Shown piece by piece: positions 1-37,923 of a stretch of DNA of 64,000 nt. Numbering within the stretch: position 1 is the first letter of the stretch; every line of letters begins with the position of its first letter. Origin of the DNA: Antedon mediterranea (Eukaryota > Echinodermata > Crinoidea > Comatulida > Antedonidae). A program made the translations under genes and the position numbers. Below the pieces are notes generated by a model. That model did not search any database. It was not told the origin of the DNA and saw only the letters and a list, made by a program, of their open reading frames with translations. The DNA is taken from NCBI RefSeq assembly GCF_964355755.1, contig NC_092677.1, positions 8,499,001 to 8,563,000 on the forward strand, written 5' to 3'.

Positions 1-3000
1 AGAGAATCCACATGGGTGAGAGCATTTTAATGGATCATCTACATAGCATTTGTATTCGCCATTATGCCCACAAGGCCATAGTTTACTGACAATCTGTTGA
101 CACCTACTTGTACATGGATGGCTGCATGTTTCATTACAGGCATGTCCACACTCTAATGTCTTTGGACAAGTTGACAAACAAGCGACTGTAGACACATCCT
201 TGAAGCAAGGTACCTTCTGATTGTGCCCACAAGGTAAACATTTTGTCACTGAAACTTTGCATTCCTTCTCACACTTCTGGAAACATTTAAGTCTACAAGG
301 ATGTCCCATAGGGCATGTGACTCTGACACAGGCCTCACGGCAAATAACTTCTTTGTGTTCGGGGTCATATGGGTGGCATGGCAGCTTACAGGCGTGTCCG
401 CATTTAAGTCTGCTAATACAAGGTACGTTGCAACCTCCTTCAGGGCATTTAGTGAAGTCACTTAGTTCACGTATTTCTACGCTTGTGTTTGTGTGGTTTT
501 GACAACACAGTCGAATAGTTGGTCCAAGCAATTTTTGTTGTCGAAGTTCTTTGACAATCTTATTCCAGTTTTCGTCTTGGGCAGCAAGAAGTTTCATATT
601 TCCTATGCAAAACAATCCTTTCTTTGCTCTCGATAATGCCACACACATCCTAGTCTTTTCTTTAAGAAAGCCAATTTTACCTGCCGCATTACTTCTGACA
701 AGTGAAAGAAGAATGATCTCATTTTCTTCGCCTTGATAGTTATCAACGGCGCGGACGCAAACGCCTTTGAAAAACTGTGACTTCATTATTTTCTTGAACT
801 GAAAGAGTTGACCCGTGTAGGTTGTAAGGATTGTAATTTCTGATGGTTTGTAGCCTTGTTGAATAAGGTACTTACAAAGATTTACCAAGAACTCAGCTTC
901 AAAAATATTTGATTTACTAAGAGTATCGTTGACTGCAGTTTCTAACTGATTATGTTCAATAAAGAACATATTACTTGACACACCTTTAATATTACCATAC
1001 TGAAGGACATTTGGGGCATCTAGAAGGCCAGTGTAAAAATAATTCTTCATAATTGATGATATTTCTGGTCTCATTCTATGTTGAATATTTAACCTCTGAC
1101 AATCCATACCGTTCTTTACCATCCTTTCGAAAAGAGAGATCTCTAACTTGAACTCTTTGGCAAGATTATACACCGTTGGATTAGGTCTCAGTTGCTGGTG
1201 ATCCCCAATCAATATAAGGTGTTCACAACCTTCAGTCAGACTTGACACTATATGAGCTTCTAGCACTTCTGCGGCCTCTTCTACAATGACGATCTTTGCC
1301 TGAATTCGTTGAAGCATATTTCTACATCGTGCCGCTCCAGTAGTGGTCATACCAATTACCTTAGCATCTCGCATCAAACGAAGATCCTCCTCTAATCCAA
1401 TTTCTTGAAGTTGTTTTCCTAACGCATCATAATTGGCTTGATTTTGAAATAGCGTCTGACGTTCGTTGTTACAGTATTTCGATATCCAAAATCGGTATAG
1501 ACGCCAACGATCATTCAGTTTGAGATTCCATATGTTACCAACTCTAGCAGCTTCAATCTCTCTCATTTTGTCAGAACTAAGCAGTTGTTTTTTGAGGTAT
1601 CGTGATCTCCTCTTTTTATTTCCTGCTAATTGAAAGCCATCTTCATCTGCAACATGTTTCAGTGGGTCGTACGCAAGTTGACGTCTAACAGTTTTCTTTA
1701 TTCTATCGATTTCCTTCACATTTACTTTTTCACCTGTTATGTCATCGTCGATATCAACGAGTCTCTGTTCGGTTAACAAATCAGCCTCTTCCGCAATATC
1801 CATTTCTTCGTTTTCTTCTTCTGTGGGTTCTTCGTCCGGATCGTGTACAATATTTTGAATGTCATCAACAACTAGGTCAGAAGCTTTATTATTCCCTGCC
1901 AATCCTAACCAAACCACCACTACATTGTCACTGTTTACTTCAAACTGCGTCAATGATTCGTAATGATCATCTGACATCCATGTTTCTAGGTAGATTTCAC
2001 CGATAACACCAGTTGTTGTCACTTTTATTCTTTCCTCTGCTAGATTCATAACATCTCGTAATGCATGCATATCTCGAAGAATATCTCTTTTTCTATTAAG
2101 TATGGATATGGGTAATTCTTTTCGCTCTCTTGCTTTTTGTCGAAGCTGAGTTAAATTAAAGCTTTTCAAAGTTTCACTTTTACTTCTTCCACCAACGCGT
2201 ACAATACCCGTTGGTTGAAATGAATGTATGCCTTCAAGAAATTGATCAAGAGCATGATTTGTGAAGCAGACTACGAATATAGGGCTGTGTTTTACTCTAG
2301 CACGAGCAGCATCAATCGTCCAACATTCACTGTTATGAAGCAATGCATGTACAATCTTTAACCCTATGTAGGTTTTACCAGTTCCAGGTGGACCTTGGAT
2401 GACTGCAAACTCTTTCGTCAACGCTGTCCTAACAGCGTCAAATTGCGAGTCATCGAGTTGAAGAGCCGTGGCTGTTGGCCAATAATTACCAGCTATTCTT
2501 ACAAGAAGTTTTGTAGTACCATCAACCAACGGTGATAGGTCATATGTCATAGTCCTGTTGTGACGTAGATACGATGGGGCATCGACTTCGTGGCGGGCTT
2601 CAATTATGTAACTTCTCATCGGCATGCTTGTTTCTGTAATTTCCTGCAAACTATGTAGTACGTGTCGGTAAGCTTCGAAGAAGGAAGATGTTTCAACCAT
2701 GGTATAATGACGTTCGTTTAAGCCAAAGTCAACGTCGTTTTCAAATTTGATATCTAAGAAACCATTTTCAAGATCCTTTTCTTCTCTGTTTGCCACAGTA
2801 GCGAAACAAACTGTCTGGAAATCGTCTGGAGACAGGCATACAAGTGACCCATAAATCAAGCGCTTTGTGGATTGCCAGCGAACTCCCTTTAAGCGTGACA
2901 CATCAAAGTGTACTCGGTATAAAATACAGTTATGTGAACACACTGGATACTCGATAGTGACGTCATTATACACCCGTATGTCAGTTATTCTTCTATGTTT

Positions 3001-4995
3001 GTCTTCTTTGTGTTGTAGGTATTCTCTGATGCCTTCTCGAAGTGGTCTCACCAAGTCCTCTCGAAGTAAACGGAACTGGACATCTAGGTAATGATCCACG
3101 TTTTCGTAACTACCGTCAAGTTTATTGTGTCGCAAATAAGGTCTGCGGTCTGCAGTAAGATCATTTAGTGTAGGGAATATTGATATTGTCCGGAAGTCAT
3201 CTGGTGGAGGGGTTTCTTCATCCATATTGATCTTTTTTCTGCGTACAATCCTTACATTTTCTCCTTGATTTTTTTCAACAGCCTGAAAAAAATCCTCCAA
3301 CTCTTTGTAACGCTCTAAAAAACACTCACCGATTAATCCTTCTCCAACTAATTCATCAATAGTTATTTTTATCAGCATTAATGAAGCTTTAAGCTCATGT
3401 GTAGAACTCGGAAGTTTTTCAACCAGTGTCCAAATTACAGTAATGATATCCTGTATTTCTACTTCATATTTCACCCTATCACTCCTTTCATCCTTTAGTG
3501 ACATAATATGATGACTCATAACATATTTAATAAATGAAGATTTTTGAAGTTTACCTAAAAATGAATTCAACGAGGCTCTAGCAGTTGTACACTCGCACGC
3601 ACTAACAATGGCGCGTAAAATTAAGGCGCACATATCTCTATTAATGTTATCCTCATTTAGAAGCTTCTGGAAGCCAAAACCGGTCGCTAGAACCTGCATA
3701 AGTATTTCTTCTTTTTCTTTACTCAGTAGTTCTTCTAGTCGTCTATAACCTATTAAAAAAAATGTTGTTCAAGTATACATTTAATAATAGAGTCTTTTGA
3801 ATTAATGCTTCTGCATTGGAGACGAACGAAATTTGCCTTTTTTGTTGATCCAATAGATCGAAAGTACTAAAAATGGTACTTACAACGATCTATTCGATCA
3901 ACAAAAAAGAAAAAAATCTCTTCTATAATATTAGGATCCAGATGAAATTGTTTCAAGAACGAAACTAAGTTTAGTATAAATATGACGTAAGAAAAAGATG
4001 TAAGGAGGTAATTTCAATCACGCTTCGATAAAACTATGCTTAACAGTAATTTGTATGTCCTGGATCGTGTTGTATAAAACATCATGGGCAATATAATCAA
4101 TCATGTAAGATGTATACAGTTTTTATTTTCGCTTATTAAATTTTTTTTGGGATTATAATTTAGTAGTAGGAATATAGATAACAAAAAAAAATCTAAAATG
4201 AATGTACGGATATAATTAATAGAAAAAAATACCTGTTGGTCTTATTTCTCTCTTTGGTCGTGCGCCTTGATCATTTTGATTTGGATCATGACGATTTAGT
4301 GATCTATTTCGACTATATGCACGCCCTCCAAAACTATCATGGCCTTGATTGCCACTATTTCTACGACCTATCTGTTCACCAGTATGGTCGTCTACGTCTC
4401 TTCTATGATCACCGCCACCGTAACTGTCATGTTGACTGACGGGTCTGAAATAATCAGCAATTTTTTTTCAATTGAAGCAAAATCTATTTGACTCATTCAT
4501 TCTTGATTTCAGATAAATACTCATAGAGAGATTCTTGGTCGTGAATTATTTAACATTGGAAGGTTGGAATTGTAGAATGGCTATACGGTAGTAAATGAAA
4601 TTAAATTAGATTTTGAATAGGTTAGTACGGTAGTAAATAAATGTCTTCAAAGTGTATTATTATTACTAAATTTATATCTTGTTGGGAAATGATGAGCTTT
4701 TTTTAGTAGGATTATGGTTTAATCAGTAATTTGACAACGTAGCAACTGTAACACATAACACTATGGAATATTGTTGAAGTAACACATGGGTAACGTGCAA
4801 TCATCATGCAAATAATAGTGCTTGTATCAAGATCATAATCAGAGGATTATTTTTAGAATTGTATAAGTACCTTTCTGTTGTTCTATAAGCAGGGTTTCTA
4901 TTGCCATGTGACGCACTTTCACGTTCGCCTCCTCGACCACGACCACCGCGCTGACCTCGACCACGGTATCGATGTTGTCGGGACTGATCAGCCAT
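1..4995 (-). CDS. ZNFX1: ZNFX1 copy 1, NFX1-type zinc-finger helicase, 3' end beyond window
   Basis: Three coding exons on the minus strand: 4995-4871, 4444-4233 and 3749 to the left edge. Phases join cleanly (2, then 1) and I found no in-frame stop through position 1, giving residues 1-1362. The start is the ATG at 4995, opening an Arg/Gly-rich N-terminus (MADQSRQHRYRGRGQRGG). The last exon opens GYRRLEELLSKEKEE and carries the superfamily 1 helicase with Walker A GPPGTGKT, the VEEAAEVLEAH motif, GDHQQLRP, QHRMRPEIS and ALSRAKKG, then the first NFX1-type Cys/His repeats. The C-terminal zinc finger lies outside the window. The family binds RNA, acts as an antiviral dsRNA sensor in mammals and as a small-RNA inheritance factor in nematodes. 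It is almost identical to the copy at 9875-16812; one net difference is an extra codon in the acidic linker near 1741-1750. Intact as far as seen, so probably functional. Confidence 0.93.
3837..3909. repeat. Intronic hairpin, ZNFX1 copy 1 intron 2
   Basis: Two 23-base arms (TTTTTTGTTGATCCAATAG... and its complement with one mismatch) flank an inner AAGTAC/GTACTT stem and an 8-base loop. The same hairpin occurs at 15151-15223 and 15655-15724 in copy 2. Confidence 0.8.
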
Positions 4996-5922
4996 TGTAT
5001 GCCCATTTACGGACTACAAAATCAAAATCATGTTTTTGTATTTTATTTCAATATAACTGAGCAGTGATATGGTACTACTATAGGCGGAAAGTTATCCACT
5101 ATGGTGCAATGGACTTTTATAATTTAAAGAAAATCACAAAGCACCTATTACTATTCCAAAAACAAATGATATAAAGTATACTAAATTGATAATGTGTGGG
5201 CATACATCCCTAGAAGAAGAAAATATAGGGTGGGAGACTGAAAGGTCAGCCTAGGACCTCCATTTGAAGTAGACAATCGGATTTACAAATGTGACATTTT
5301 GTTTACATTTTTCATCTTACTGATGACGTCATAAAGAAACACATTCATGTTAGTCACAAAACTCCGATAGTTTTCGATATCAACTTTTGATGTAGTATAC
5401 TGTAGGCTAGTATGTATAAGCCTTTGTATTAGGGACTATGTCTAAATATGCCCGTCAGCCTATTTAGCTATCTAAGGAGGCTTACAAGACTCTCTCCAAT
5501 CCAATTATAAAGACAGCAGGTACCAACCACGGATAATATCCTATCTTTTACCATAAGGTGCTCCCAATTAAGGACTCCCTCTTATTAGAGACCGACTAAA
5601 GATTTTTGTTCAACTAAACATTTTACTATAAACTTCCCGGAAAATTAAAGACTACTTTAATATACACTTTTTAAATTAATGTGTTTTTGGAGTAGAACAG
5701 CCATTAACAATTGGAACAAAAGCAAATGCTAGAGTTTTTATAGGACAAATAAACCCCGATTATTATCAAATTACCCTCACCTTTAGGACGCAGCCAGCGG
5801 AGCAAAATAACCATTCTAATACATTATAATTTCCCTAAAATTATAGTCTACACGTTCTGGCATTTACAGACATAGTAGCAGGCAACATTCAGAAAATGCA
5901 GGATGTTGATGGTGTATGATAA

Positions 5923-5966
5923 ACGCCGTGGCTAAAGATACGGTACCGTATCTTTAGCCACGGCGT
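5923..5966. repeat. 44-bp perfect palindrome
   Basis: Two 22-base arms (ACGCCGTGGCTAAAGATACG...) meet with no spacer at GGTACC. It lies inside the copy-1-specific insertion and would form a perfect cruciform. Confidence 0.95.
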
Positions 5967-5993
5967 ATAATAAATGCTTTTATGAATCCAGGA

Positions 5994-6230
5994 GTTGGGT
6001 AGTCGAGTGGGTATGAAACTTGACTGTCATACAGAGAGACCTGGGTTCAATTTCCGACAACTCAGAGTCTACTGTAAATGAGTAGGGCCTACCTGGTTGA
6101 AAATACTAGAGAGGATAAGGCGGCGTGCAAAGGGACTGTCCATCCTGCCACATGATGCCGAGGCTTAGTAAAATGAGCTCACTACCCTGTGTTCAGAATT
6201 GAATACGGGACCTTTATGTTTTCCAGACAC
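5994..6230 (+). mobile_element. tRNA-derived SINE-like element
   Basis: TAGTCGAGTGG fits the RNA polymerase III A box and GGTTCAATTTCC, about 40 bases on, fits the B box. A tRNA-unrelated body with CAAAGGGACTGTCC and CATGATGCCGAGG follows. The 3' end is not clear; the boundary given is approximate. Confidence 0.6.
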
Positions 6231-6256
6231 GACACTCTCACTCACTCTATTGATAG

Positions 6257-7134
6257 CAGGCCCGTAGCCAGGGGGGGTTTTTATGGTTCGGGCGAACCCC
6301 CCCCCCCCCCTTTACAGCGAACCCCCCTTAACCAACTGCGAACCCCCATCCCCGACATGCCCAATACCTCACCCTCATCTCAAAAAATCCTCCAAATACG
6401 TGCCCCCACAGTACAAAAAGTTGTTTGTAAATTGAAAAAATCGTAAACTTGTTCGTGAACCTTCTTCTCTGTATGAGCGTCAACTAGTGATACATGTCTG
6501 TAAATTTCTAAAAGCTGCAAATGAATTGCCGATTTTAACCTGAAAAATAAATGTTTGGTCCCTGCATGTAACATGATATTGACGCGTCTCATAGCGTGCG
6601 CGCGCACGAACGATTCGTACAAAGGACACCGCCAGACAACTGCGTACCTATTGTTTAGATCACTGGCAGTCAGGCAGCATGCATAAAGTATATAGCCTTC
6701 CGACGTACATCAGTATTTATGTGTGACTATGAAGTATAATGTATCATAGAGGATTATAGTGAATATTAATATTTTACACTATAATATCTATGGTATCAAG
6801 TACTGTAGTTCACATTATGGCATCCGATTATTTTTTTTAGACCACCAGCCGATACGTACTAAATTGTATCAATATCACCTATTTACATATTTATATTCCT
6901 CAACAAATTGCTGTAAATAAATATTATAGATAGAGCTAGCAAATAGCATTTGCCTTCACCCAGTGTGCTTTTTTCGGGGCTGGATATACGTTCGCATTGA
7001 ACTTGAACGCAAAACAAAATACGGAGTAAATGATCAAACAATCGCCGGTTCCGCACAGAGCACGCGCATCTAACATACGGCAACAAATATTTAGTGTCCG
7101 AACCCCCCCTTGACAGATCCTGGCTACGGCCCTG
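6257..7134. mobile_element. Non-autonomous DNA transposon with 16-bp inverted ends
   Basis: The left end CAGGCCCGTAGCCAGG and the complement of the right end CAGGGCCGTAGCCAGG differ at one base. G-runs and C-runs lie just inside both ends. Flanks share GATAG, a possible short target duplication. The 878-bp body has no credible transposase frame. Confidence 0.75.
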
Positions 7135-7199
7135 GATAGGCCTAGTATACTAGTTGGCCTCAGTAGGCCTAATTTAAGCCTATAAGCATGACATAATTT

Positions 7200-7240
7200 A
7201 GACCTTACCTTTCTTGTCGCCTTGCGTTTAGAATGCAGAT
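7200..7240 (-). other. Candidate 5'-UTR exon donor, ZNFX1 copy 1
   Basis: On the minus strand a strong donor (GAAAG/GTAAGGTC) has its cut at 7209/7208. A matching acceptor (TTTTGTAG/TCC) sits at 5014-5015, 18 bases upstream of the coding-start ATG at 4995. This suggests an untranslated first exon around 7209 and upward, and a ~2.2-kb 5'-UTR intron. The transcription start is not visible. Confidence 0.5.
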
Positions 7241-7655
7241 AATTGAAATAACTGTTAAACTGTTAAATCAAGCTTACGAAATAAAATTATTTAGAAAATA
7301 CCAAAAGGTACTGAAATGCCGGAAACTGGAATTTCCCATCTAACCACGCATGCGTAGTCGTTACGGTTCAGTGAATTTGAAAACAAATACAGTGCAACAG
7401 AGCAAGAATGTCCTAAAATTAAAATGCTGCCCTCTATAAATTGGGTAATGCTACAACCATGAAATCATCCTCACTACAGCAGTACTGATAAGGTTAATAT
7501 TTTACATTAAGTATGATTTTAATAACTGGCTCACGTAGGTTAGGCCTTTATTTGGCTTTCGTAGGCCTATAATAACATTCGATAGATGAATAACTGATTG
7601 TCGCCTATATTGACTGACCTTCACAGATATGGCGTGCCGTGGATCGAGTGTTTAT

Positions 7656-8133
7656 AGTAAAGTTAGATTGTTAAAGTTATCAAATATAAAACGTGAATAA
7701 ACCACCAAAAATCGTATCACACAAAACTTGATGTATTAAATGATGCCTCAATCTAAATATTTCTGTTTTCTTTTAACAGTTTTGTTTTTATTGTCTTTTA
7801 AACATTACAACGTTTTAAAGTGGCGTCTTGATATGTAACACATAATGGTACTAGCTAAACGGTAATCAATTATTATTAACCCGTTTTACTAATATTTACA
7901 CATGATATTTCTCCAGGTAATAATTACTATTTTCGATTATAATTTTAGGCCTATTATAATTCTAGCCATTTTAAAAATTGCAAGCTAGCTACATTTATCC
8001 TGCTACTAATCTAGATTAAAATCATTCAGACGGTTTACCATAAACATTGCGTTTAAAAGTCTAATAAATAATTCTGTTTGAGATATTTGATATGATAGAC
8101 TCAATACATCACAAGTGTAGAATCTTAGTATCC
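7656..8133. repeat. Direct repeat unit A between the ZNFX1 genes
   Basis: This ~480-bp stretch, opening AGTAAAGTTAGATTGTTAAA, is repeated with small changes at 8641-9124, offset 985 bases. No gene is seen in it. It lies between the copy 1 upstream region and the 3' end of copy 2. Confidence 0.85.
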
Positions 8134-8640
8134 TGGTAAACTTGAAGCTAGGTTAAAAGTGTTTATTTTATCCATGACATTTGTATGTTTTTTTTTTCAT
8201 TTTCGTAAAATCAGGTTACTAAGAATTTATAGAATTTATTAGTAATAAAAGAAAAAGAAAGGGTATAATTGAAAATACCCCTCCTCCTATGGACAAGCTA
8301 TGATGGAAGATTTGATTTATACGGTTTATGTACAACTAGCGTCGTCGTTTCTGCTGATCACTAATGTAATGCACACATGAATAGACATACACACCGTCAA
8401 CCAAACATTTGTGTTTACACCCACACAACTTGAAGCTTCATTAGTTAAATTGAATAACAACCAACTAATATAAGTTAATAACTATTAACAGACTTAAAAC
8501 AACTTAAAGATCACCTCTATTATATTCTTTAATATCTCCAAACATAATAAATCAACATACAGAGTAAAATCAGTAGACCTAATTTATATCCGTTGTCAAC
8601 TACCATTAATTTTGTTATTTTAATCAGTAAAATAATCTGA

Positions 8641-9124
8641 AGTAAAGTTAGATTGTTAAAATTATCAAATACAAAACGTGAAAAAAACAACAAAAATCGT
8701 ATCACAAAAAAATAATGTATTAAATGATGCCTCAATCTAAATATTTCTTCTTTTTTTTCAACAGTTTTGTTTTAATTGTCTTTTAAATATTACAGAGTTG
8801 TTTTAAAGTGGCGTCTCGTTATGTAACACATTATGGTACTCGGTAAAATAAAATAATCAATTATTATTAACCCGTTTTACCAACATTTACACATGATATT
8901 TCTCTCCAGGTAATAATTACTATTTTCGATTATAATTATAGGTCTATTATAATTCTAGTGATTTTAAAACATTGCAGGCTAGCTACATTTTATAATTCTA
9001 CTACTAAATATCATTTTCTAGATTAGAATCATTCGGATGGTTTAACATAAAAACTGCATTGAAAAGTTTTGTTTGAGATATTTGATATGATACACTTAAT
9101 ACGGTAAGTGTGGAATCTTAGTAT
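8641..9124. repeat. Direct repeat unit B between the ZNFX1 genes
   Basis: Second copy of the unit at 7656-8133, same orientation, with scattered substitutions and short indels. The interval 8134-8640 between the units, and 9125-9689 downstream, show no recognisable gene. Confidence 0.85.
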
Positions 9125-9689
9125 TGATTATTACCACTAAGCAAATAGAAGAGAAACAGGATTTAAATAATCGTAAAATACAATAGGATAACAATTTAAA
9201 TACCCAACACAAAACATAATTCTAGAATTATTAAAACCATTACGCTCTTTACTCAATACTAACAAGAACAAATTCATTATGCCAGAAATTAATATTATGT
9301 ATGATTCATTTAAATATCACTATTTATTTATTTTATTCCGAATCTGTATATACACTGCAAGAAACAACACATTCAGGATGACCCTAATAATCCTTACAGA
9401 GAAGAATTATTTTTCACTGAGGTCCTAATGAACTGAACTATCATACATATTGTAGACTAATTATCGATTGAATTATTGTATAGCATTGATATACTAACGT
9501 GCAGAAAACAATAAAATCGTTGTGTCTTATGAATGTTATTGATGTTCTTATTGATCATGACGTCGTTTGATTGGACTTGGTATATTATTATTTCCATCGA
9601 AATCAGTATAGATGGATCTCACTTCTTTTTCTATAATTATCGTCCATAATAGACGGACCTTAATCGTTTGAATCGTCTTCCATCAGTTA

Positions 9690-9820
9690 TTAAAACATAT
9701 TGTCAAATCTATAATTTTCTAAATTGGTTTGTTCTGACCAAGCAGCATAAGAAGCGCCATCTATTTCACGGGCTAGTGTGTTATCCTCTCGAAGGCGATG
9801 TTGTGTTCCTCCAATCTTGG
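9690..9820 (-). pseudogene. Fragment of a third ZNFX1 3' end
   Basis: Read on the minus strand this stretch gives IGGTQHRLREDNTLAREI, then DGASYAAWSEQTN and NYRFDNMF with a stop at 9690-9692. It aligns without gaps to the last ~43 residues of ZNFX1 copy 2 (GGTNYQLREGNILAREMDG...NYGFNDIF). The similarity stops abruptly at about 9820, inside the RZ zinc finger, with no upstream exon recognised. It lies about 55 bases downstream of the copy 2 stop codon, in the same orientation. It has diverged more than copies 1 and 2 have from each other, so it is probably the relic of an older duplication. An alternative terminal exon is possible but less likely. Confidence 0.75.
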
Positions 9821-9874
9821 ATACACAAGTACAGTAATATAACTAATTTAATATTCTTGGGTCAGTCTCAATTA

Positions 9875-12800
9875 TTAAAATATGTCGTTAAATCCATAAT
9901 TTGCTAAATTTGTTTGTTCTGACCAAGCAGCGTAAGAAGCGCCATCCATTTCACGGGCTAGTATGTTGCCTTCTCGGAGTTGATAATTTGTTCCTCCAAT
10001 ATTCGATCCGCATTCTGGACACTTGCCTTCCGTCGTGGCACCGCCGCAGTCACCTATCGCATATACGTGTCCTTTTGGGCACTTAAACCAATGACCCTTT
10101 GATAGACCCATCGCCTTTACAATTTGTACCCGTTCGTCATCTGATATTCCAGGAATACTGCCGCATTTCTCTCTTATTTTTTTCAAGCAAAAATGTATGG
10201 TCTTTATATCACCTTCTATTAGAGGTTTCACGCCAGCGACTCGTTTTTTAACCGTAGATAAATAATCCAATAATTCATCTTTACTAATTTTAGAAGTATG
10301 TAGTATGCTTTTAAGCACATATAATTCCATAAAGTATTTGATACGCTGAAGCTCTAGTGATATATCTTCCAGAAGTTGTTCACTAAACCGATTTCTTGGT
10401 TTAAGGATCCATTGTTTGCAGGTTTCAAGTTCTTTCTTTATCTTTGTCTCAAATTTTACATATCCTGAACAAATTTTGCCATTACCTGCTTTTGTAATCT
10501 TTTCTAACTCCAAGAGAAACTGTACTTTGTTCTTCATATCAGTAACGTGATCCGGTGTCTTCAATGTTTTGAGTTCAATACTAAGATATCTACGCGACTC
10601 TGCATCAGAAACTCTTGAAATTTTAATTTCCAGCATTTCTTTATCCAAATCTATTTGATGTTTATCTCCATTAATTTTTGCCTTTACACATTCCACATCC
10701 CATTGTAATTGTTTTATGATATTGCCGTACCGCAGGTTCCTTCTAATTGGTGTTCTACACGCTGGACAAAGTTTTGGCTGAACATCGTTTTGTTGTTCGT
10801 CTTTTTTATCCATCCAAAAGTCCAGTCCTTCTGATTCTATAACGTGACCACAGTCTTCCAACTCAATAAATCTGACATCAGGATCTTCCTCGTTACCAAA
10901 CAGTATAGCGGTCAACTCCTCTGTATCGCATTTCCGACATTTCTTAGGACACGGTTCACCGCAAAGACCAACACATGCATGACCACACTTTATAAGCTTC
11001 TTACATGGTTCATTGCATCTATCTCGATTGCAGAGTTGCCCACATTGTCTGGTACAAGTTTGATGTTCGCATTTCCATTCACATGGCATTGTACAAGGTG
11101 TACATTCATCTCCACATTTCCTAGGACATTTGCTATGGACGCATCGGTTTTCACATGGTTTACTACACGGTGGACAATTGCGTGTGCATGGTTCAAGACA
11201 TTCGTGTCCACATACCAAAGTCCTGCCACATTTTGACCGACATTGTTGATGAAGACGACCATTTTTACAATCTCCACATTTTCCTTCACAAGTATGGTCA
11301 CATTTCAAAGAGAATCCACATGGGTGAGAGCATTTTAACGGATCATCTACATAGCATTTGTATTCGCCATTATGCCCACAAGGCCATAGTTTACTGACAA
11401 TCTGTTGACACCTACTTGTACATGGCTGGCTGCATCTTTCTTTACAGGCATGTCCACACTCTAATGTCTTTGGACAAGCTGACGAACAAGCGACTGTAGA
11501 CACATCCTTGAAACAGGGTACCTTCTGATTGTGCCCACAAGGCAAACATTTTGTCACTGAAACTTTGCATTCCTTCTCACACTTCTGGAAACATTTAAGT
11601 CTACAAGGATGTCCCATAGGGCATGTGACTCTGACACAGGCCTCACGGCAAATAACTTCTTTGTGTTCGGGGTCATATGGGTGGCATGGCAGCTTACAGA
11701 CGTGTCCGCATTTAAGTCTGCTAATACAAGGTACGTTGCAACCTCCTTCTGGGCATTTAGTGAAGTCACTTAGTTCACATATTTCTACGCTTGTGTTTGT
11801 GTGGTTTTGACAACACAATCGAATAGTTGGTCCAAGCATTTTTTTTTGTCGAAGTTCTTTGACAATCTTGTTCCAGTTTTCGTCTTGGGTAGCAAGAAGT
11901 TTCATATTTCCGATGCAAAACAATCCTTTCTTTGCTCTCGATAATGCTACACACATCCTAGTCTTTTCTTTAAGAAAGCCAATTTTACCAGCCGCATTGC
12001 TTCTTACAAGTGAAAGAAGAATGATCTCATTTTCTTCGCCTTGATAGTTATCAACGGCGCAGACGCGAACGCCTTTGAAAAACTTTGACTTCATTATTTT
12101 CTTGAACTGAAAGAGTTGACCCGTGTAGGTTGTAAGGATTGTAATCTCTGATGGTTCATAGCCTTGTTGAATAAGGTATTTACAAAAATTTACCAAGAAC
12201 TCAGCTTCAAAAATATTTGATTTACTAAGAGTATCGTTGACTGCAGTTTCGAACTGATTATGTTCAATAAAGAACATATTACTTGACACGCCTTTAATAT
12301 TACCATACTGAAGGACATTTGGGGCATCTAGAAGGCCTTTGTAAAAGTAATTCTTCATAATTGATGATATTTCTGGTCTCATTCTATGTTGAATATCCAA
12401 CCTCTGACAATCCATGCCGTTCTTTACCATCCTTTCGAAAAGAGAGATCTCTAAATTGAACTGTTTGGCAAGATTATACACCGCCGGATTAGGTCTCAGT
12501 TGCTGGTGATCTCCAATCAATATGAGGTGTTCACACCCTTCAGTAAGACTTGACACTATATGAGCTTCTAGCACTTCTGCGGCCTCTTCTACAATTACGA
12601 TCTTTGCCTGAATACGTTGAAGCATATTTCTACATCGTGCCGCTCCGGTAGTGGTCATACCAATTACCTTAGCATCTCGCATCAAACGAAGATCCTCCTC
12701 TAATCTGACTTCTTGAAGTTCTTTTCCTAACGCATCATAATTGGCTTGATTTTGAAATAGGGTCTGACGTTCGTAGTTACAGTATTTCGATATCCAAAAT

Positions 12801-15800
12801 CGGTATAGACCCCAACGATCGTTCAGTTCGAGATTCCATATGTTTCCAACTCTAGCAGCTTCAATCTCTGTCATTTTGTCAGAACTATGCAGTCGTTTTT
12901 TTAGGTATTGTGATCTCGTCTTTTTATCTCCAGCTAATTGAAAACCATCTTCATCTGCAAACTGTTTCAGTGGGTCGTACGCAAGTTGACGTCTAACAGT
13001 ATTCTTTATTCTATCAATTTCCTTCACATTTACTTTTTCACCTTTAACATCATCGATATCAACGAGTCTCTGTTCGGTTAGCAAATCAGCCTCTTCTGCA
13101 AAATCCATTTCTTCGTTTTCTTCTTCTGTTTGTTCTTCGTCCGGGTCGTGTACAATGTTTTGAATGTCATCAAATACTATGTCGGAAGCTATATTATTCC
13201 CTGCTAATCCTAACCAAGCCACCACTGCATTGTCACTGTTTACTTCAAACTGCGTCAATAATTCGTAATGATCATCTGACATCCATGTTTCTAGGTAGAT
13301 TTCACCGATAACACCAGTTGTTGTCACTTTTATTCTTTCCTCTGCTAGATTCATAACATCTCGTAATGCATGCATATCTCGAAGAATATCTCTTTTTCTA
13401 TTAAGTATGGATATGGGTAATTCTTTTCGCTCTCTTGCTTTTTGTCGAAGCTGAGTTAGATTGAAGCTTTTCAAAGTTTCACTATTACTTCTTCCACCAA
13501 CCCGTACTATACCCGTTGGTTGAAATGAGTGTATGCCTTCAAGAAATTGATCAAGCGCATGGTTTGTGAAGCAGACTACGAATATAGGGCTGTGTTTTAC
13601 TCTAGCACGAGCAGCGTCAATCGTCCAACATTCACTGTTATGAAGCAATGCATGTACAATCTTTAACCCTATGTAGGTTTTACCAGTTCCAGGTGGACCT
13701 TGGATGACTGCAAACTCTTTCGTCAACGCTGTCCTAACAGCGTCAAATTGCGAGTCATCGAGTTGAAGAGCCGTGGCTGTTGGCCAAGAATTACCAGCTA
13801 TTCTTACAAGAAGTTTTGTAGTACCATCAACCAACGGTGATAGGTCATATGTCATATTTCTGTTGTGACGTAGATACGATGGGGCATCGACTTCGTGACG
13901 GGCTTTAATTATGTAGCTTCTCATCGGCATGCTTGTTTCTGTAATTTCCTGCAAACTGTGTAGTACGTGTCTGTAAGCTTCGAAGAAGGAAGATGTTTCA
14001 ACCATGGTATAATGACGTTCGTTTAAGCCAAAGTCAACGTCGTTTTCAAATTTGATTTCTAAGAAACCATTTTCAAGATCCTTTACTTCTCTATTTGCCA
14101 CAGTAGCGAAACAAACTGTCTGGAAATCGTCTGGAGACAGGCATACAAGTGACCCATAAATCAAGCGCTTTGTGGATTGCCAGCGAACTCCCTTTAAGCG
14201 TGACACATCAAAGCGTACTCGGTATAAAATACAGTCATGTGAACACACTGGATACTCGATAGTTACGTCATTATACACTCGTATGTCAGTTATTCTTCTA
14301 TGTTTGTCGTCTTTGTGCTGTAAGTATTCTCTGATGCCTTCTCGAAGTGGTCTCACCAAGTCCTCTCGAAGTAATCGGAACTGGACATCTAGATAATGAT
14401 CCACGTTATCGTAACTACCGTCAAGTTTATTGCGTCGCAAATAAGGTCTGTGGTCTGCTGTTAGATCATATAGTGTAGGAAATATTGATATTGCCCGAAA
14501 GTCGTCTGGTGGAGGGGTTTCTTCATCCACATTGACCTTTTTTCTGCGTACACTCTTTTCATTTTCTCCTTGAGTATTTTCAACAGCATGAAAATATTCA
14601 TTCAATTCTTTGTAACGTTCTAAACAGCACTCACTAATTAATCCTTCTCCAACTAATTCATCAATGGTTGGCTGCAGCAACAGTAATGAAGCTTTAAGCT
14701 CATGTGTAGAACTTGGCAGTTTTTCAACCAGTGTCCAAATTACGGTAATAATATCTTGTATTTCTACCTCATATGTTATCCTATGATTCCTTTCATTCTT
14801 TAGTGACATAACATGGTGCATCATAATATTTTTAATAAAAATAGATTTCTGAAGTTTACCTAAAAATGAATTCAACGAGGCTCTAGAAGTTGTACACTCG
14901 CACGCACTAACAATGGCGCGTAAAATTAAGGCGCACATATCTCTATTAATGTTATCCTCATTTAGAAGCTTCTGGAAGCCAAAACCGGTCGCTAGAACCT
15001 GCATAAGTATTTCTTCTTTTTCTTTACTCAGTAGTTCTTCTAGTCGTCTATAACCTATTAAAAAATGTTTTTCAAATATACATTTAATAAGTCTTTTGAA
15101 TTAATTCTTCTGCATTGGAGACGAACGAAACAAACACAAGAGAAATGTGTCTTTTTTGTTGATCCAATATATCGAAAGTACTAAAAATGGTACTTAAAAC
15201 GATATATTGGATCAACAAAAAAGAAAAAAATCTCTTCTATAATATTAGGATCCAGATGAAATTGTTTCAAGAACGAAACTAACTTTAATATAAATATGAC
15301 GTAAGAAAAAGATGTAAGGAGGTAATTTCAATCACGCTACGATAAAACTATGCTTAACAGTAATCTGTATGTCCTGGATCGTTTTGTATAATAACATATG
15401 GGCAATATAATCTATCATGTAATGTATACAGTTTCTATTTTTGTTTATTTACATTTCTTTTTGAGATTACAATTTGTAGTAGGCATATAGACAACCTTAA
15501 AAAAATCCAAATGAATGTAGTCTTCTAGTCGTCTATACCCTATTTTAAAAAGAATTGTTGTTCAAGTATACATTTAATAATACAGGTACACTCTTTTGAA
15601 TTTATGTTTCGGCATTGGACACGAACGAAACAAATAGAAGTGAAATCTGTCTTCTTTTTTGATCCAATAGATCGAAGTACTAAAAATGGTACTTATAACG
15701 ATCTATTGGATCAACAAAATAAAGAAAAAATTCTTTTCTATAATATTAGGATCCAGATGAAATTGTTTCAAGAACGAAACAAAGTTTAATATAAATATGA

Positions 15801-16812
15801 CGTAAGAAAAAGATGTAAGGAGGTAATTTCAATCACGCTACGATAAAACTATGCTTAACAGTAATCTGTATGTCCTGGATCGTGTTGTATATAACATATG
15901 GGCAATATAATCTATCATGTAATGTATACAGTTTCTATTTTCGTTTATTTACATTTCTTTTTGAGATTACAATTTGTAGTAGGCATATAGACAACTTTAA
16001 AAAAAAAATCCAAAATGAATGTACGGATATAATTAATAGAAAAAATACCTGTTGGTCTTATTTCTCTCTTAGGTCGTGCTCCTTGATAGTTTTGATTTGG
16101 ATCTTGTCGATTTAGTGATCTATTTCGACTATGTGCACGCCCTCCAAAACTATCATGGCCTTGATTGTCACTATTTCTACGGCCTATCTGTTCGCCAGTT
16201 TGGTCGTCTACGTCTCTTCTATGACCACCACCACCGTAACTGTCATGTTGACTTACAGGTCTGAAATAATCAACCGTTATTTTTCAATTGAAGAAAATTC
16301 TATTTTATTCATTCATTCTCTATTTCAGATAAATATTCGTAGACATTTCCTGGTTTAACATTGGACGGTTTGAGATTGTAGAATATCTATACGGCAGTAA
16401 ATTAAATTAAACTAGATTTTGATTCGTCACTTGGACGAATTAGAGGTTAGTACGGTACTAAATAAATGTCTTCCCAGTGTATTATTATTACTAAATTGAT
16501 ATCTTGTTGGGAAATGATGAGCTTTTTTTAGTGGTATTATGGTTTAATCAGTTGCAATTTTACAATGTAGCAACTGTAGTGTAACACGTAACACAAAACT
16601 TGTTGGGTAAAGTGCAATCATCATGCAAATAATAGTGCTTGTATCAACATCATAATCAGAGGATTATCTTTAGAATTGTATAAGTACCTTTCTGTCGATC
16701 TATACGCAGGGTTTCCATGTGACGCACTTCTACGTTCACCTCCTCGACCACCACCACGACGTTGACGTCGACCACGGTATCGATGTTGTCGGGACTGATT
16801 GGCATCAGCCAT
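9875..16812 (-). CDS. ZNFX1: ZNFX1 copy 2, NFX1-type zinc-finger helicase, complete
   Basis: Coding exons 16812-16688, 16260-16049 and 15054-9875 join in phase to 1838 residues; vertebrate ZNFX1 is about 1900. Order: Arg/Gly/Asp-rich low-complexity N-terminus (1-112), helical region, SF1 helicase of the UPF1-like group with Walker A GPPGTGKT near residue 567, VEEAAEVLEAH near 930, GDHQQLRP near 960, QHRMRPEIS near 1000 and VDNYQGEE...ALSRAKKG near 1115-1155. Tandem NFX1-type CxxxC/CGHxC repeats follow at about 1230-1465, then an acidic/coiled stretch. The RZ-type zinc finger near 1765-1800 reads HWFKCPKGHVYAIGDCGG then CPECGSNIGG, a fold shared with RNF213. The ATG at 15004 inside exon 3 is internal: in-frame sequence continues upstream to an acceptor at 15055-15056. 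Expected role: cytoplasmic RNA-binding helicase in antiviral sensing or RNA surveillance. Confidence 0.95.
15151..15223. repeat. Intronic hairpin, ZNFX1 copy 2, first unit
   Basis: The 23-base arms are fully complementary. Relative to the other two hairpins, one base is changed on each arm so that pairing is kept (AGATCG/CGATCT became ATATCG/CGATAT). Confidence 0.8.
15525..16015. repeat. Tandem duplicate of exon 3 start and intron 2 in ZNFX1 copy 2
   Basis: This stretch repeats about 15,035-15,505: TCTTCTAGTCGTCTATA, then the ACGAACGAAAC stretch, the hairpin, TAGGATCCAGATGAAATTG and the ATATGACGTAAGAAAAAG block, in the same order. It therefore includes a remnant of the exon 3 acceptor edge. 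Copy 1 has only one such unit, so the duplication arose after the two genes separated. Confidence 0.8.
15655..15724. repeat. Intronic hairpin, ZNFX1 copy 2, second unit
   Basis: Third occurrence of the hairpin. It is slightly shortened in the T-run of the left arm, with core arms GATCCAATAGATCG and complement fully paired. It belongs to the duplicated intron segment at 15525-16015. Confidence 0.75.
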
Positions 16813-17636
16813 TGTAGCCTATGCCCATTTACGGACTACAAATCAAAACCATGTTTTTATATTTATTTCAATTTACCTAAGAAGTGATTTGGTACTACTA
16901 TAGGCGGAAAGTTATCCACTATGGTTCAATTGACTTTTATAATTTAAAGCACAATTAGGTAACAAAGTAATTCACAAAACACCTAGACGATTACTATATT
17001 CCAATAACAAATGATATAAAGTATACTGAATTGATAATGTGTGGGCAAACATCCCAAGAAGACACTTTGAATTAGATAGTTAGATATAGAGTGGAAGTCT
17101 AGGACCTCTATTTGAAGTATATCGGATTTACAAATTTGAGATTGTTTACATTTGTCATCTTACTGATGACGTCATAAAGAAACACATTCATGTTAGTCAC
17201 AAAACTCCGATAGTTTTCGATATCAACTTTTGATGTAGTATACTGTAGGCTAGTATGTATAAGCCTTTGTATTATGGCCTATGTCTAAATATGCCCGTCA
17301 GCCTATTTAGCTATCTAAGGAGGCTTACAAGACTCTCTCCAATCCAATTATAAAGACAGCAGGTACCAACCACGGATAATATCCTATCTTTTACCATAAG
17401 GTGCTCCCTTTAATTAGAGACCGACTAAAGATTTTGGTTCAACTAAACATTTTACTATAAATTTCCAGGAAAATTCAAGACTACTGTTTTTGTACTGTGT
17501 TTTTGGAATAAAACAGCGATTGAAAATTATTTATAGGACAAATAAACCCGGATTAGTATCAAATTACCTTCACCCTGATAGGCCTAGTATACTAGTTGGC
17601 CTCAGTAGGCCTAAGCCCATAAGCATGACATAATTT

Positions 17637-17680
17637 AGATCTTACCTTTCTTGTCGCCTTGCGTTTAAAATGCAGATATT
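17637..17680 (-). other. Candidate 5'-UTR exon donor, ZNFX1 copy 2
   Basis: The same donor seen upstream of copy 1 occurs here, with its cut at 17646/17645. The acceptor lies at 16836-16837 just above the ATG at 16812. Because the whole upstream region is duplicated, conservation alone does not prove function, but the donor matches consensus very well. The intron is about 0.8 kb, shorter than in copy 1 because the copy 1 insertions are absent. Confidence 0.5.
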
Positions 17681-17971
17681 GAAATACCTGTTAAACTGTT
17701 AAATCAAGCTTACGAAATAAAATTATTTAGAAAATTCAAAATTTTACTGAAGTGCCGGAAACTGGAATTTCCCATCTAACCACGCATGCGTAGTCGTTGT
17801 GGTTCAGTGAATTTGACAACTTATTAATAATGATAAGGTTAATATTTTACATTAAGTATGATTTTAATAACTGGCTTACGTAGGTTTAGGCTACAGATAA
17901 AAATTGATAGATACTAGGCCTATTTGGCTTTTGCTTAATAACATTCGATAGATAAATACGCTGCATTAGAG

Positions 17972-18003
17972 CAGGGAGATGTAATGTATTTTACATCTCC
18001 CTG
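17972..18003. repeat. Short perfect hairpin
   Basis: Arms CAGGGAGATGTAA and TTACATCTCCCTG are separated by 6 bases. It lies in the upstream region of ZNFX1 copy 2 and is absent from the equivalent place in copy 1. Confidence 0.8.
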
Positions 18004-18627
18004 ATTAGAGCAACTGATTGTCGCTTTTACTGACCTTCCCAGACAAGACCATGATATAAACAAGATATCATTATTCATCATGGTATCATAAATATCTCAT
18101 ACTATGATATCATACCCATGATACAATTTATATATCAGTCTGGTATTAGAAACTTCTCATTTTATGATATCAATCGGATGATCTCACAACGATCACAAAT
18201 TTATGTCAGGTTCTGATTTCATATGACGTAGGCCTACTAACAGCTGATGTTTTTTTTTAAATCAATGTTTGAATCTCTTTGTGCAATAAAAAAATGTATA
18301 GACCATTCCCCCACGCGCCCTCCCCACTACCCCATTACCTCCTGATACCCCCTGGGACATGACTTCCACTGATTTTGCGCGTGGAACCATTCACAAAAAT
18401 ATGGGTGTGCCGTGGAGACGAGTGTTGCGTGTGTGCGGGGGTGGTGAGGGGATGTGCATTCACATGATTTGGGGAAATAGAACAATAAATATGTTGTGTG
18501 TAAACAACGTTTTTTTTTTCTATTACCAAAGATATTGTTGTTTGATGGCAATGACACCATGCCCTTTTCTCCCATCTCCTCACTATAGGCCCTGTGGATT
18601 TCTTCCGAGAGGTATTAAAAATGCTAA

Positions 18628-23052: not shown

Positions 23053-23233
23053 AAGCTTGGTTCCCACTAGAACGTAACGCAAGGACGTAAACGCAACGCA
23101 AGCGTTTTAACCAATGACAAGCGAAGTTATAGACAGTTAGCAATCACAAGCGAATAAGCCATCGCTTGTGATTGGTCAATTCACTTGAGTTGCATTACGT
23201 CCTTGTGTTGCGTCGCTAGTAGGAACCACGCTT
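23053..23233. mobile_element. MITE family M1, copy 1
   Basis: 181 bp bounded by AAGCTTGGTTCCCACTAG and CTAGTAGGAACCACGCTT, with inner AACGCAAGGACGTAA/TTACGTCCTTG repeats. A mid-element palindrome is built from CACAAGCGA/TCGCTTGTG. It is nearly identical, in reverse orientation, to 34,467-34,643. Confidence 0.9.
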
Positions 23234-24821
23234 GAGGCTAATATTGTTTGTTTTGTTTTTCTTATAAATTTAAAGAATAAATGTTTAATTGAATTTAAAT
23301 TGAATATGCGTTGCAGACACGTACATTGAATTGATTAATTAAAAACACAAACAAGTTCTATCCGATTTTCTCCTCCGATTTATGGTTGACCGATTTGTAT
23401 ATTTTAAATATCAAGTATCGTGAACTTTTCCCTACTTTTTGTGTTTACATGTATTCGTTTACGGCAGACATATTTAAATCATAACTCAGAAAAATATTGT
23501 AAACAAAGAAATCCACGAACTTTAACAACTTTGCGTGTTGTGAGAAAGTCGAGAGCATTAATATTTGTATAACCATGGACCATGTCCATAAAAAAAACCA
23601 TAATTGTAAACTCATCTTAGAATAAACTATTAAAATGTTCAGTTCTTTTTGACGTGCACATTTTATTCACTATAAAATTATTTAAGGAAAATGATCAATA
23701 CTGTATCCGGTTTTATTTCGTCAGTTTGTTTGTGTTTTATTGATTTCCACGTAGTAAAATAAATTCAATGTCAATACGAGTTGTAATAATGATAAAAAGG
23801 GAAGAATATTATCAAACTAAAATGTGTACGTTACGCTGGTATTAAAAAAACGTCTGACATTTAAAACTACAATGAAAGTATTTTTGTAGTGTCACTAAGA
23901 ATATCACACATATAATTAGCACTATACAGGTGGTTATGTGTTGCTATTCGTAACGTTGAGTTACAGCGGTGGTATCGTTAGGGTGGATATAAAACCAAAA
24001 CATTAATAAATACAAAGAACATGAATAATTTGTACAAGATTTTCATTAACTATAGTCATAACGGTAAGAAATTTAGATTTTGTAATGCGGGTAGGTGAAG
24101 AACCTGACATGTACAATATCCAGGTCTTCGAAAATGTGCTACAACTCGTAAACAAATGCAGGTGTGTTTCAGGTGGTATCTTGGTGTATAGGAGTTTACT
24201 AAATGTAAGTGTGCTGTAAATGGCATTTTGGAGTGTGCGAGCGTGAAACGCACTCTCACGCCTCAAAACAAGACCTGAATCTCATGTGAACCGGATTACC
24301 AATCCGCCGACTGATTCTGCATGCAAATCGCCATAATATAAAACTTTTAATATTAACAACAAAACAAATAAATAAAAACCAATGTTCGCAACTGCTTTTA
24401 GACTGATTCTTGATCTAAATCGTTCTTTGTCCCCAACAATACGAAAAATCAATATGAATAAAATTAAACTTTGAGTAAGATTCAAATCGTAATAAAGTTA
24501 TTCCATTCCGTAGAAACATTGAAATAATAATAATTTAACAGATAAAATAAACGTGTAAATAAAAAAAAATGTGTTGTCGATGGGCTTTGTTTTAATTTCT
24601 CCTCCATTTTACCCCTTTCAATTATTGTTTTGGTAATGATTTTTTTCCGATGGAATTTTTGGTCAAAACTACATTGAAATGTTATGCCTATTCCACAAAA
24701 CGTTTTTTTTAAACAATTTTTTTTTTCATAATTTTTATGTAACATTAATTGCTAATAGCATATTTATACAACAGAATTATAACATTGCCTTAATTACATC
24801 AAAAAGGTACACAAAATAATG

Positions 24822-24893
24822 AGGGGACACCCGGATTTGAACCAGGGACCTCTCGATCTGCAGTCGAATGCTCTACCACTGAGCTATATCCCC
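24822..24893 (-). tRNA. tRNA-Cys(GCA)
   Basis: A 72-nt cloverleaf: acceptor GGGGATA paired with TGTCCCC, D arm GCTC/GAGC, anticodon loop CTGCAGA (anticodon GCA), T arm CCTGG-TTCAAAT-CCGGG. A and B boxes fit consensus. All stems pair, with one G-U in the acceptor. Confidence 0.95.
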
Positions 24894-26154
24894 TTCTTAA
24901 TTTATGTAAGCAGATATGTCCTTACAGTGCTACGTTTCCATGATTATCAATAATACAAGATGCTTTACGGTATTATTGTTGTGGGTTTTAAAGTTCCGTA
25001 TGGTTTCATTCACCAAGATCACTGATGCGTGTCGAATATAGTAAGTGTCAGTGAATGTTTTCAACTTATAGCAATGGCTTTTTGAATTGATTGGTTTTTT
25101 AAATATATTTATAGACGTTTTTCTCAAAAAAAAATTAATTATACGTTGTTTTCTTCCCAATTAAATTTGGTGTATGACAACAAATTAATAATAATGAAAT
25201 GACCTTACTCCTTTTCTGGGTGATTTTATATTAGACATTAACAACTTCTAGAAAATTATTTTGTGTAATTTGGTTAAATTAATAACTGGTTTGAATACGA
25301 AATTTTCACATTGCACACGTTGAGTAAGGCATAGAGATATTATCTATAACGAGTAAAGTAATATTCAAGCTGTTAGCCACATGTTGGGTTCATGATACTC
25401 ATCAGATTAATATAATTTCCAAATGAAATGAGCAGAAGCATTCTGTTTTTAAGGCAGGCTATGCATATACTTATTGAATTAGGAATCTTTCTTTTATTTA
25501 CCCAAAATCATAAAAATATTATTATACATAAATAAAATACTAAATATACATGGAAGGGTTAAACAATAATAACAAGTTCAGCAGCTAAACATTAGAAAAT
25601 GCATAATTAGATGAAAATATATATAAGGGCAACTTTTGTAATATTAATAAACATAAATAAACTGTTTCTCACTGCTAACTTTCTCTCAAATAAACACGTC
25701 ATTATCCCAAAATTGTTTCTTTTTTCTTTAAGAAACACAACAATAATAGGCCTACCTTAAAATATTCTATCATTCAGTTTTACATTTAAATGAGGTCAAT
25801 TAAATAACCTTAAAATTCAGTCCAGGGAAGAATGAAACATGGAGGTACCTCCATGAATGAAATTCTACTCTTTCATTGACTGAGTTTGGTGTTATTATAA
25901 TTACAAACAAAATACATACAAGGGAGCAAATGCAATTATATTTTAAGATAAATGATTTAAAAATGTTTGGGAAGAAGTCATCGTCTATGTACAAGCGGCC
26001 CATTCAATCTGATACTGATTCCATAGTAATACAAAATGGAAATACATTTGAAACTGGCATGAAATATAAAAAATAGATAATTCAAAAATACATTAAAAGC
26101 AATCATAGGGCTAGGCCTACGATTGAATTTCACTAGTAAACTGTAAAAATAATG
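24894..26154. other. Intergenic between tRNA genes
   Basis: AT-rich; no exon, tRNA or strong repeat recognised. Open frames here are short and lack supporting context. Confidence 0.5.
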
Positions 26155-26227
26155 AAGGGATACCCGGATTCGAACCAGGGACCTCTCGATTTGCAATCGA
26201 TTGCTCTCACCACTAAGCTATATCCCC
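26155..26227 (-). tRNA. tRNA-Cys(GCA), slightly degenerate
   Basis: Closely related to the gene at 24,822. The anticodon loop is TTGCAAA (GCA). Weaknesses: a G-U pair at the acceptor end (GGGGATA/TATCCCT), an A-G mismatch at the top of the anticodon stem, and one extra base in the D loop. It could be functional or an early pseudogene. Confidence 0.75.
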
Positions 26228-34466: not shown

Positions 34467-34643
34467 AAGCGTGTTTCGCACTAGCAACGCAAGGACGTAA
34501 TGCAACGCAAGTGAATTGACCAATCACAAGCGATCGCTTATTCGCTTGTGATTTGCTAACTGTCTATAACTTCGCTTGTCATTGGTTAAAACGCTTGCGT
34601 TGCGTTTACGTCCTTGCGTTACGTTCTAGTGGGAACCAAGCTT
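34467..34643. mobile_element. MITE family M1, copy 2
   Basis: Reverse-orientation near-copy of 23,053-23,233. Ends are AAGCGTGTTTCGCACTAG and CTAGTGGGAACCAAGCTT, with the same inner ACGTCCTTGCG and CGCTTGTGATT blocks. Confidence 0.9.
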
Positions 34644-36855: not shown

Positions 36856-37290
36856 GCGCTGCGTCCGACTCGTGCTTTACGTCCTTACTCTGCGTCCGAC
36901 TCGTAATTACGTCCGTACTCTGCGTCCGAGTGTGAACCAATCTTTACTTTCCGTTGCGCTTACGCTGCGTCCAACTCGTGCTGTACGTCCTTACTCTGCG
37001 TCCGACTCGTAATTACGTCCGTACTCTGCGTCCGAGTGTGAACCAATCTTTACTTCAGTTGCGCTTACGCTGCGTCCAACTCGTGCTGTACGTCCTTACT
37101 CTGCGTCCGACTCGTAATTACGTCCGTACTCTGCGTCCGAGTGTGAACCAATCTTTACTTTCCGTTGCGCTTACGCTGCGTCCAACTCGTGCTGTACGTC
37201 CTTACTCTGCGTCCGACTCGTAATTACGTCCGTACTCTGCGTCCGAGTGTGAACCAATCTTTACTTGCCGTTGCGCTTACGTACGTCCGT
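36856..37290. repeat. 106-bp tandem array derived from M1 ends
   Basis: GTGTGAACCAATCTTTACTT recurs near 36,931, 37,037, 37,142 and 37,248, a period of 105-106. Each unit holds several TGCGTCCGACTCG and TTACGTCC motifs and ends in a diverged M1 terminus. Repeated peptide-like frames in it are by-products of the array. Confidence 0.9.
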
Positions 37291-37923
37291 CCATGTTGCA
37301 TCCAAGGGAACCAACCTTATGGTTTGTTAACACCGTTGCTATTTGCTATCGTCATTTGATAGAAAATAACATTCGAACCCTCAAGCATAGATGCTTGAAG
37401 AAATATAACTCTGTGCAAATATTACAGATTTAATTAAATTCAATAGAACAACGTATTCAATGTACCGTTAACCCTATGTTCTCTTGTTGATATTATTCAT
37501 TTGATTAACGATAAAAACTAATTATGTTAAACAGTCTAAATTATGAAATGGTTCTTGGTAATAAGTGTGATCGATATTTCATATACAGTTCCAGGCAATA
37601 TCCGAAAATTGACAATCAGATTTACAGCAGGACTAGTTTCTAATTTCAAATGTCGGAACGTACATGGAAATAATATTAAAATAAGCGCAAAGGCTTTGTT
37701 TTTCGATAGGTGGCGTACTTTACATTCGTCACAATCTAAGCTAATTTATAATTCTAATTTAGGTCATCAAAACATACAAATAGTGTCGCGGGCTGATGAA
37801 TGCGGGTATTTTAAAGGATACGAGTAAAGGCCTCTAGTTATCGATGCTGTTGAACCACTGTTTAACTGAGTAATATAAACGCACTATTATCAGTGTATAT
37901 ATATTTATGTATAACGCTTTGCA

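Follow-up and report, generated by a model that had tools for sequence, protein, structure and literature searches.

From what is known of the ZNFX1 family, Caenorhabditis elegans ZNFX-1, a member with a germline role, functions in the germ granule inheritance of small RNAs, and a 2022 survey by Blasi et al. is said to have found that sponges, sea urchins and molluscs possess multiple ZNFX1 copies composed of one or a few exons. The vertebrate gene has a structure unlike one giant exon. In vertebrates, ZNFX1 is a single gene, whose product is an interferon-induced superfamily 1 (SF1) RNA helicase and RNA-activated E3 ubiquitin ligase (PDB 9q9z; PMC11959080, PMC13270118), and the RZ finger of RNF213 is essential for ubiquitylation (reviewed in PMC13270118, PMC11959080). 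Three ZNFX1 genes are present in Aplysia (PMC9334734). Here we describe a pair of adjacent ZNFX1 genes, copies 1 and 2, in the crinoid Antedon mediterranea, located in a window of 64,000 nucleotides (C8:8499001-8563000, the whole stretch of DNA that was analysed), together with searches of the 354 Mb, 18-contig genome. A first-pass annotation of the window had described the pair as a recent tandem duplication of a whole gene. Very likely, the two genes are intact canonical (type A) members of a nine-gene array that has an inverted three-gene counterpart 2.7 Mb away, a family shaped by tandem duplication, gene conversion and birth and death, in which both copies are constrained and are probably retained for RNA-sensing capacity.

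The likeness to vertebrate ZNFX1 comprises the ZNFX1 domain, the SF1 core over ~1,180 residues, a putative Cys-rich NFX1 region and, in type A, the RZ finger; an arginine-glycine (RG)-rich N-terminus is also a trait of the vertebrate protein. The crinoid family differs in having 12 genes rather than one, in placing nearly all of the coding sequence in one exon, and in including a second type (type B) that has no detectable RZ finger and carries added fingers and tails. With the multi-copy invertebrate ZNFX1 genes (Aplysia, PMC9334734, and those of the survey mentioned above) it shares copy multiplicity and a giant exon, but the 12 linked copies and the mosaic exchange among them, and perhaps the clear division into genes with and without the RZ finger, set it apart. 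The view of ZNFX1 as a single gene, which the first-pass annotation gave for vertebrates, fits them but not invertebrates such as Aplysia with its three genes (PMC9334734). Multi-copy invertebrate ZNFX1 is already known; the present case adds to this a large array, exchange that can be traced, and an RZ-less subfamily whose presence beside the canonical one is the least expected part. The bivalve expansions of C1q-domain genes (PMC6835236) and of inhibitor of apoptosis proteins (PMC7831173) are similar as lineage-specific tandem expansions of immune genes, and the present case differs in concerning another family, that of an intracellular RNA helicase and E3 ligase. In vertebrates a single ZNFX1 does everything; a dozen copies with and without the catalytic finger are natural variants with which to ask which part of the protein senses RNA and which part marks it. 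The array also bears on whether non-vertebrate animals diversify the ZNFX1 RNA sensor, and it has the form of an antiviral array typical of birth-and-death evolution, in which gene conversion can be followed.

Self-BLAST of the window showed that the regions at ~1-7.6 kb and ~9.1-17.9 kb are copies of each other. Positions 11309-15519 match 1-4206 with 94.4% identity over 4.2 kb, positions 15517-17485 match 3726-5656 with 85.7% identity, and two more upstream pieces extend the correspondence out to 17891/7545. On the minus strand, the big exon is an open frame in both copies, spanning 9875-15100 in copy 2 and, in copy 1, running from 3768 to 1 and leftward past the window edge to a stop at C8:8497564 (Table 1). 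Three-exon models with GT-AG sites and the same splice phases could be built for both genes, in which exons 1 and 2, predicted from splice sites and phase, measure 125 and 212 nucleotides in each copy, and the predicted proteins are 1,840 (copy 1) and 1,838 (copy 2) residues long. These alignments, open big exons and gene models bear out the tandem pair with both frames open; the reported net coding indel of one codon is correct for as much of the big exon as lies inside the window, but across the whole gene it amounts to two codons. The part of copy 1 beyond the window, where a disabling change had been considered, was scanned and none was found: the 3′ part is intact and contains the RZ finger. 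The ~490-bp tandem duplication in copy 2 creates a decoy exon start near 15540.

Both predicted products begin with an RG-rich N-terminal segment and contain the ZNFX1 domain (PF25396; E 6e-33 and 5e-33 in the two copies), an SF1 helicase core (AAA_11/AAA_12) with the motifs GPPGTGKT, VEEA, GDHQQL, QHRM, VDNYQGEE and ALSRAKKG, and a C-terminal RZ finger (PF20173; E 1.6e-21 in each). An alignment with PDB 9q9z, entered as “NFX1-type zinc finger-containing protein 1”, covers residues 15-1196 of the big exon, and residues 13-176 match the ZNFX1 fragment PDB 9eve (E 5e-11), a sequence match to a putative ARM-type N-terminal region. A Pfam search of the finger region of copies 1 and 2 returned no match to an NF-X1 model; the NFX1-type Cys/His pattern occurs 6-8 times in type A genes, and the region partly aligns to 9q9z.

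Genome-wide, the ZNFX1 domain gave 12 matches, all on C8, a result that was confirmed by a whole-protein search and that contradicts the view of one lone duplication, as the pair belongs to a 12-gene family in two arrays. Array 1 (8.396-8.514 Mb) contains nine genes arranged head-to-tail on the minus strand, and array 2 (11.198-11.234 Mb), 2.7 Mb from array 1, contains three genes on the plus strand. Four genes are of type A, namely c0 (8485824-8490806), c1 and c2 (copies 1 and 2) and d1 (11198082-11203223), and the other eight are of type B (b1-b6 in array 1; d2 and d3 in array 2). In both arrays, A precedes B in the direction of transcription. The helicase motifs are preserved in c1, c2 and d1 and also in the open B genes, some with small changes. 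In trees, A stands apart from B, d1 falls outside c0-c2, and d2 is joined with d3; by the Nei-Gojobori method, which was used for all synonymous (Ks) and nonsynonymous (Ka) divergences, Ks in the helicase half is ~0.75-1.0 between arrays and no more than ~0.6 per subtype within array 1. Types A and B are two old subtypes.

The youngest copies in the family are pairs of type B genes, the two halves of which can have different nearest relatives. In the helicase half, Ks is 0.016 for b1-b3 and 0.019 for b2-b5, and in the C half it is 0.81 for b1-b3 (split type B loci were analysed as sequence pieces). Close relatives alternate along array 1, in the order b1, b2, b3 (with a b1-like helicase half), b4, b5 (b2-like) and b6, and such mosaics look like the expected product of unequal exchange or conversion. 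Several members are damaged: the frame of b1 is broken repeatedly by stops and shifts, a single in-frame stop in b3 falls on the same residue as one in b1, an insertion interrupts b2, the frame of b6 ends late but ahead of its RG tail, and c0 has lost the VRSN segment of the helicase together with portions of its RZ finger and of exon 2.

Between copies 1 and 2, Ks is 0.130 and Ka is 0.038, giving a Ka/Ks of 0.29, the calculation that the first-pass annotation had proposed. The introns and flanks of the pair differ by ~10-15%, with many indels, so the Ks appears neutral. Longer type A comparisons give a Ka/Ks of 0.24-0.25, and on this baseline an average near 0.6 would be expected had either copy escaped constraint since the split. 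Changes assigned by the odd-one-out approach number 39 nonsynonymous and 43 synonymous in copy 1 and 54 and 61 in copy 2 (rough ratios of 0.24 and 0.23), and the protein changes lie mostly in the N-terminal ARM-like part and in the segment that follows the NFX1 fingers, with few in the helicase core. Both copies are therefore under purifying selection, in keeping with the earlier suggestion that selection has retained them, and both very probably make protein. Along the pair, Ks by window ranges from 0 to 0.37, with some windows at 0.26-0.37 and the last ~200 codons at 0-0.03. Runs of shared polymorphic sites among the three type A genes of array 1 are longer than in shuffled data (P 0.0002-0.002, 5,000 shuffles), and the trees conflict, with c0 and c1 joined at 98% in the helicase half and c0 and c2 joined at 96% in the C-terminal part. 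Gene conversion is the simplest explanation of the near-zero-Ks tracts, the site runs and the conflicting trees, and it implies that the pair is older than its best-matching stretches suggest; the split appears to have occurred well before the array's youngest copies arose.

The same conversion tracts raise the possibility that the copies persist through conversion repair alone and not through a need for two genes. This explanation, though unlikely, has in its favour that the tracts are significant and that the damaged c0 still has the common upstream block described below. However, conversion by itself does not give synonymous change an advantage over nonsynonymous change in sequence that lies beyond the tracts, and c0, b1, b2 and b3 have decayed despite lying in the same array. 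A very recent single tandem duplication, too young for decay, would account for the 94.4% identity over 4.2 kb, the open frames and the nearly identical last 200 codons, but it is highly improbable: a Ks of 0.13 and introns that differ by 10-15% with many indels contradict the word “recent”, the nearly identical parts are conversion tracts within a more diverged alignment, a Ka/Ks of 0.29 means that selection has acted since the split, and the genome contains ten further members. The chance is equally slight that diverged alleles were set side by side in the assembly as a haplotype duplication. Heterozygosity can be high in marine invertebrates, but alleles usually differ far less than the 13% synonymous divergence of this pair, the 490-bp intron duplication occurs in copy 2 and not in copy 1, no N gap separates the copies, and the close pairs of the array alternate without a collinear block repeat.

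The reading of the pair as constrained members of a birth-and-death array is accordingly preferred. In this scheme, rounds of tandem duplication together with unequal exchange would have enlarged the family, with partial homogenisation by gene conversion and loss of members by pseudogenisation. Both arrays have A first, and most simply they would descend from one ancestral array, with A upstream of B, that was divided by an inversion with a breakpoint inside it or copied by an inverted duplication. By analogy with the family, the products would bind viral or stress RNA through the SF1 helicase core, and type A could use its RZ finger to link this binding with ubiquitin transfer; type B, with its helicase, RING-like segment, extra NFX1 fingers and RG tails or second finger block, might bind or cluster RNA without that transfer. 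Selection for larger or more varied antiviral RNA sensing would be the most likely reason for retention. Four points weigh against this interpretation: gene conversion blurs the pairwise Ka/Ks values; the array and its copies were read from one genome assembly; the sequence read on the flanks of array 2, ~5-8 kb, shares with the window just a dispersed repeat, which allows either history of the two arrays; and the antiviral function would follow from knowledge of the family, not from the locus.

The distinction between the two types is clearest at the RZ finger. Matches to this finger were found genome-wide at c1, c2, d1, c0 (with an in-frame TGA), a decayed fragment 3′ of d1 and two places on other contigs; none coincided with any B locus, b5 included, and the segments of b5 and d2 equivalent to the finger gave no RZ score even at an E of 10. 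The aligned B segment retains only W..C..GH, and the RING-like CxxC segment that precedes it is kept. Cysteine-rich finger motifs number 10-15 in full-length B genes versus 6-8 in type A, and the B tails are glycine/RG-rich in array 1 and form a second finger block in array 2. If, as the reviews cited above indicate, ZNFX1 is an RNA-activated E3 ligase and the RZ finger is needed for ubiquitylation in RNF213, type B should be incapable of catalysing that step. A more tentative and rather doubtful extension is that ZNFX1 has here split into two co-clustered classes, RZ-bearing RNA-helicase E3 ligases on the one hand and RZ-less, finger-expanded, RGG-tailed RNA-binding helicases on the other, the latter possibly serving as partners, decoys or RNA-clustering platforms, such that RNA sensing would be naturally uncoupled from ubiquitination.

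Comparison of c0, c1 and c2 revealed a 174-bp block, ~0.3-0.5 kb ahead of the predicted ATG, in which the three genes share 98-99% identity, and the next ~500 bp downstream differ by 7-11% (binomial P for block versus next stretch of 6e-7, 2e-3 and 4e-6 in the three pairs, the block having been picked after looking). In searches of array 2 and of the whole genome, the block was found solely at the three type A loci of array 1. The block may be a promoter or an exon of the 5′ untranslated region (UTR), or else another conversion tract; its lack at d1 is compatible with both the promoter/5′ UTR and the conversion readings.

Table 1. Positions within the window of the features of the two ZNFX1 copies.
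Feature	Position	Strand	Remarks
Copy 1 (c1) main exon, part inside the window	1..3749	-	Extends 1,437 bases beyond the left window edge, ending in the stop at C8:8497564
Copy 1 exon 2, predicted	4233..4444	-	GT-AG sites and phase as in copy 2
Copy 1 exon 1, coding part, predicted	4871..4995	-	
174-bp upstream block, copy 1	5312..5485	-	
Second version of the last ~46 residues, 70% identical	9693..9830	-	Just 3′ of the copy 2 stop
Copy 2 (c2) main exon	9875..15054	-	Putative ARM-like N-terminal region, ZNFX1 domain, SF1 helicase core, putative NFX1-type fingers, RING-like CxxC segment, RZ finger, stop
~490-bp tandem duplication in copy 2 (15031-15519 and 15517-16023)	15031..16023	-	None in copy 1; covers intron 2 and the main-exon start
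Copy 2 exon 2, predicted, RG/glycine-rich, 212 nt	16049..16260	-	GT-AG sites and phase as in copy 1
Copy 2 exon 1, coding part, predicted ATG, RGG-rich, 125 nt	16688..16812	-	
174-bp upstream block, copy 2	17155..17328	-	Contains TGACGTCA (cAMP response element-like)

Several further features were recorded in the window and elsewhere in the genome. Searches for the mitochondrial COX1 and mollusc haemocyanin families gave no match, neither outcome being informative by itself, and a ferritin assembled from its exons had its best PDB matches among ferritins of invertebrate type, which does not point to a phylum. Directly 3′ of d1 lies a decayed second C-terminal/RZ fragment (C8:11203426-11203890), in a position like that of the remnant downstream of copy 2. 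On C2, ~8 SF1 helicase (AAA_11) loci are clustered on the minus strand (G000:C2:1,766,432-1,900,677) and possibly represent a second expanded helicase family; some of them are split into several pieces, and some contain stops. A short dispersed repeat, 95-100% alike and in both orientations, occurs near both arrays, at 23053-23211 and 34484-34643 in the window and to the right of array 2 (~C8:11235060-11235430); a comparison of the array 2 flanks with the right side of the window found only this dispersed 90-190 bp repeat in common. Adjoining array 1 is a single-exon gene for a rhodopsin-type G protein-coupled receptor (PF00001; 20617-21837, plus strand), and farther along the same strand are a multi-exon MORN-repeat gene (28,100-29,200), presumably resembling radial spoke head protein 1, and a probable multi-exon class C receptor-like gene of GABA-B-like type (37,915-57,235), with a weak ANF_receptor match at its start and a 7tm_3 match at its end. 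Two genes for tRNA-Cys and a sequence resembling tRNA-Asp, the atc anticodon of which is unusual, are located at 24821-24893, 26154-26227 and 31106-31178. An 820-bp inverted repeat (45207-46030 and 47422-48240) has arms that are 88.7% identical, each composed of two tandem ~300-bp units, and tandem repeats with units of 106 bp, 229 bp (perfect), 55 bp and 77 bp are present at 36857-37288, 40195-40654, 40935-41596 and 62910-63722, respectively.

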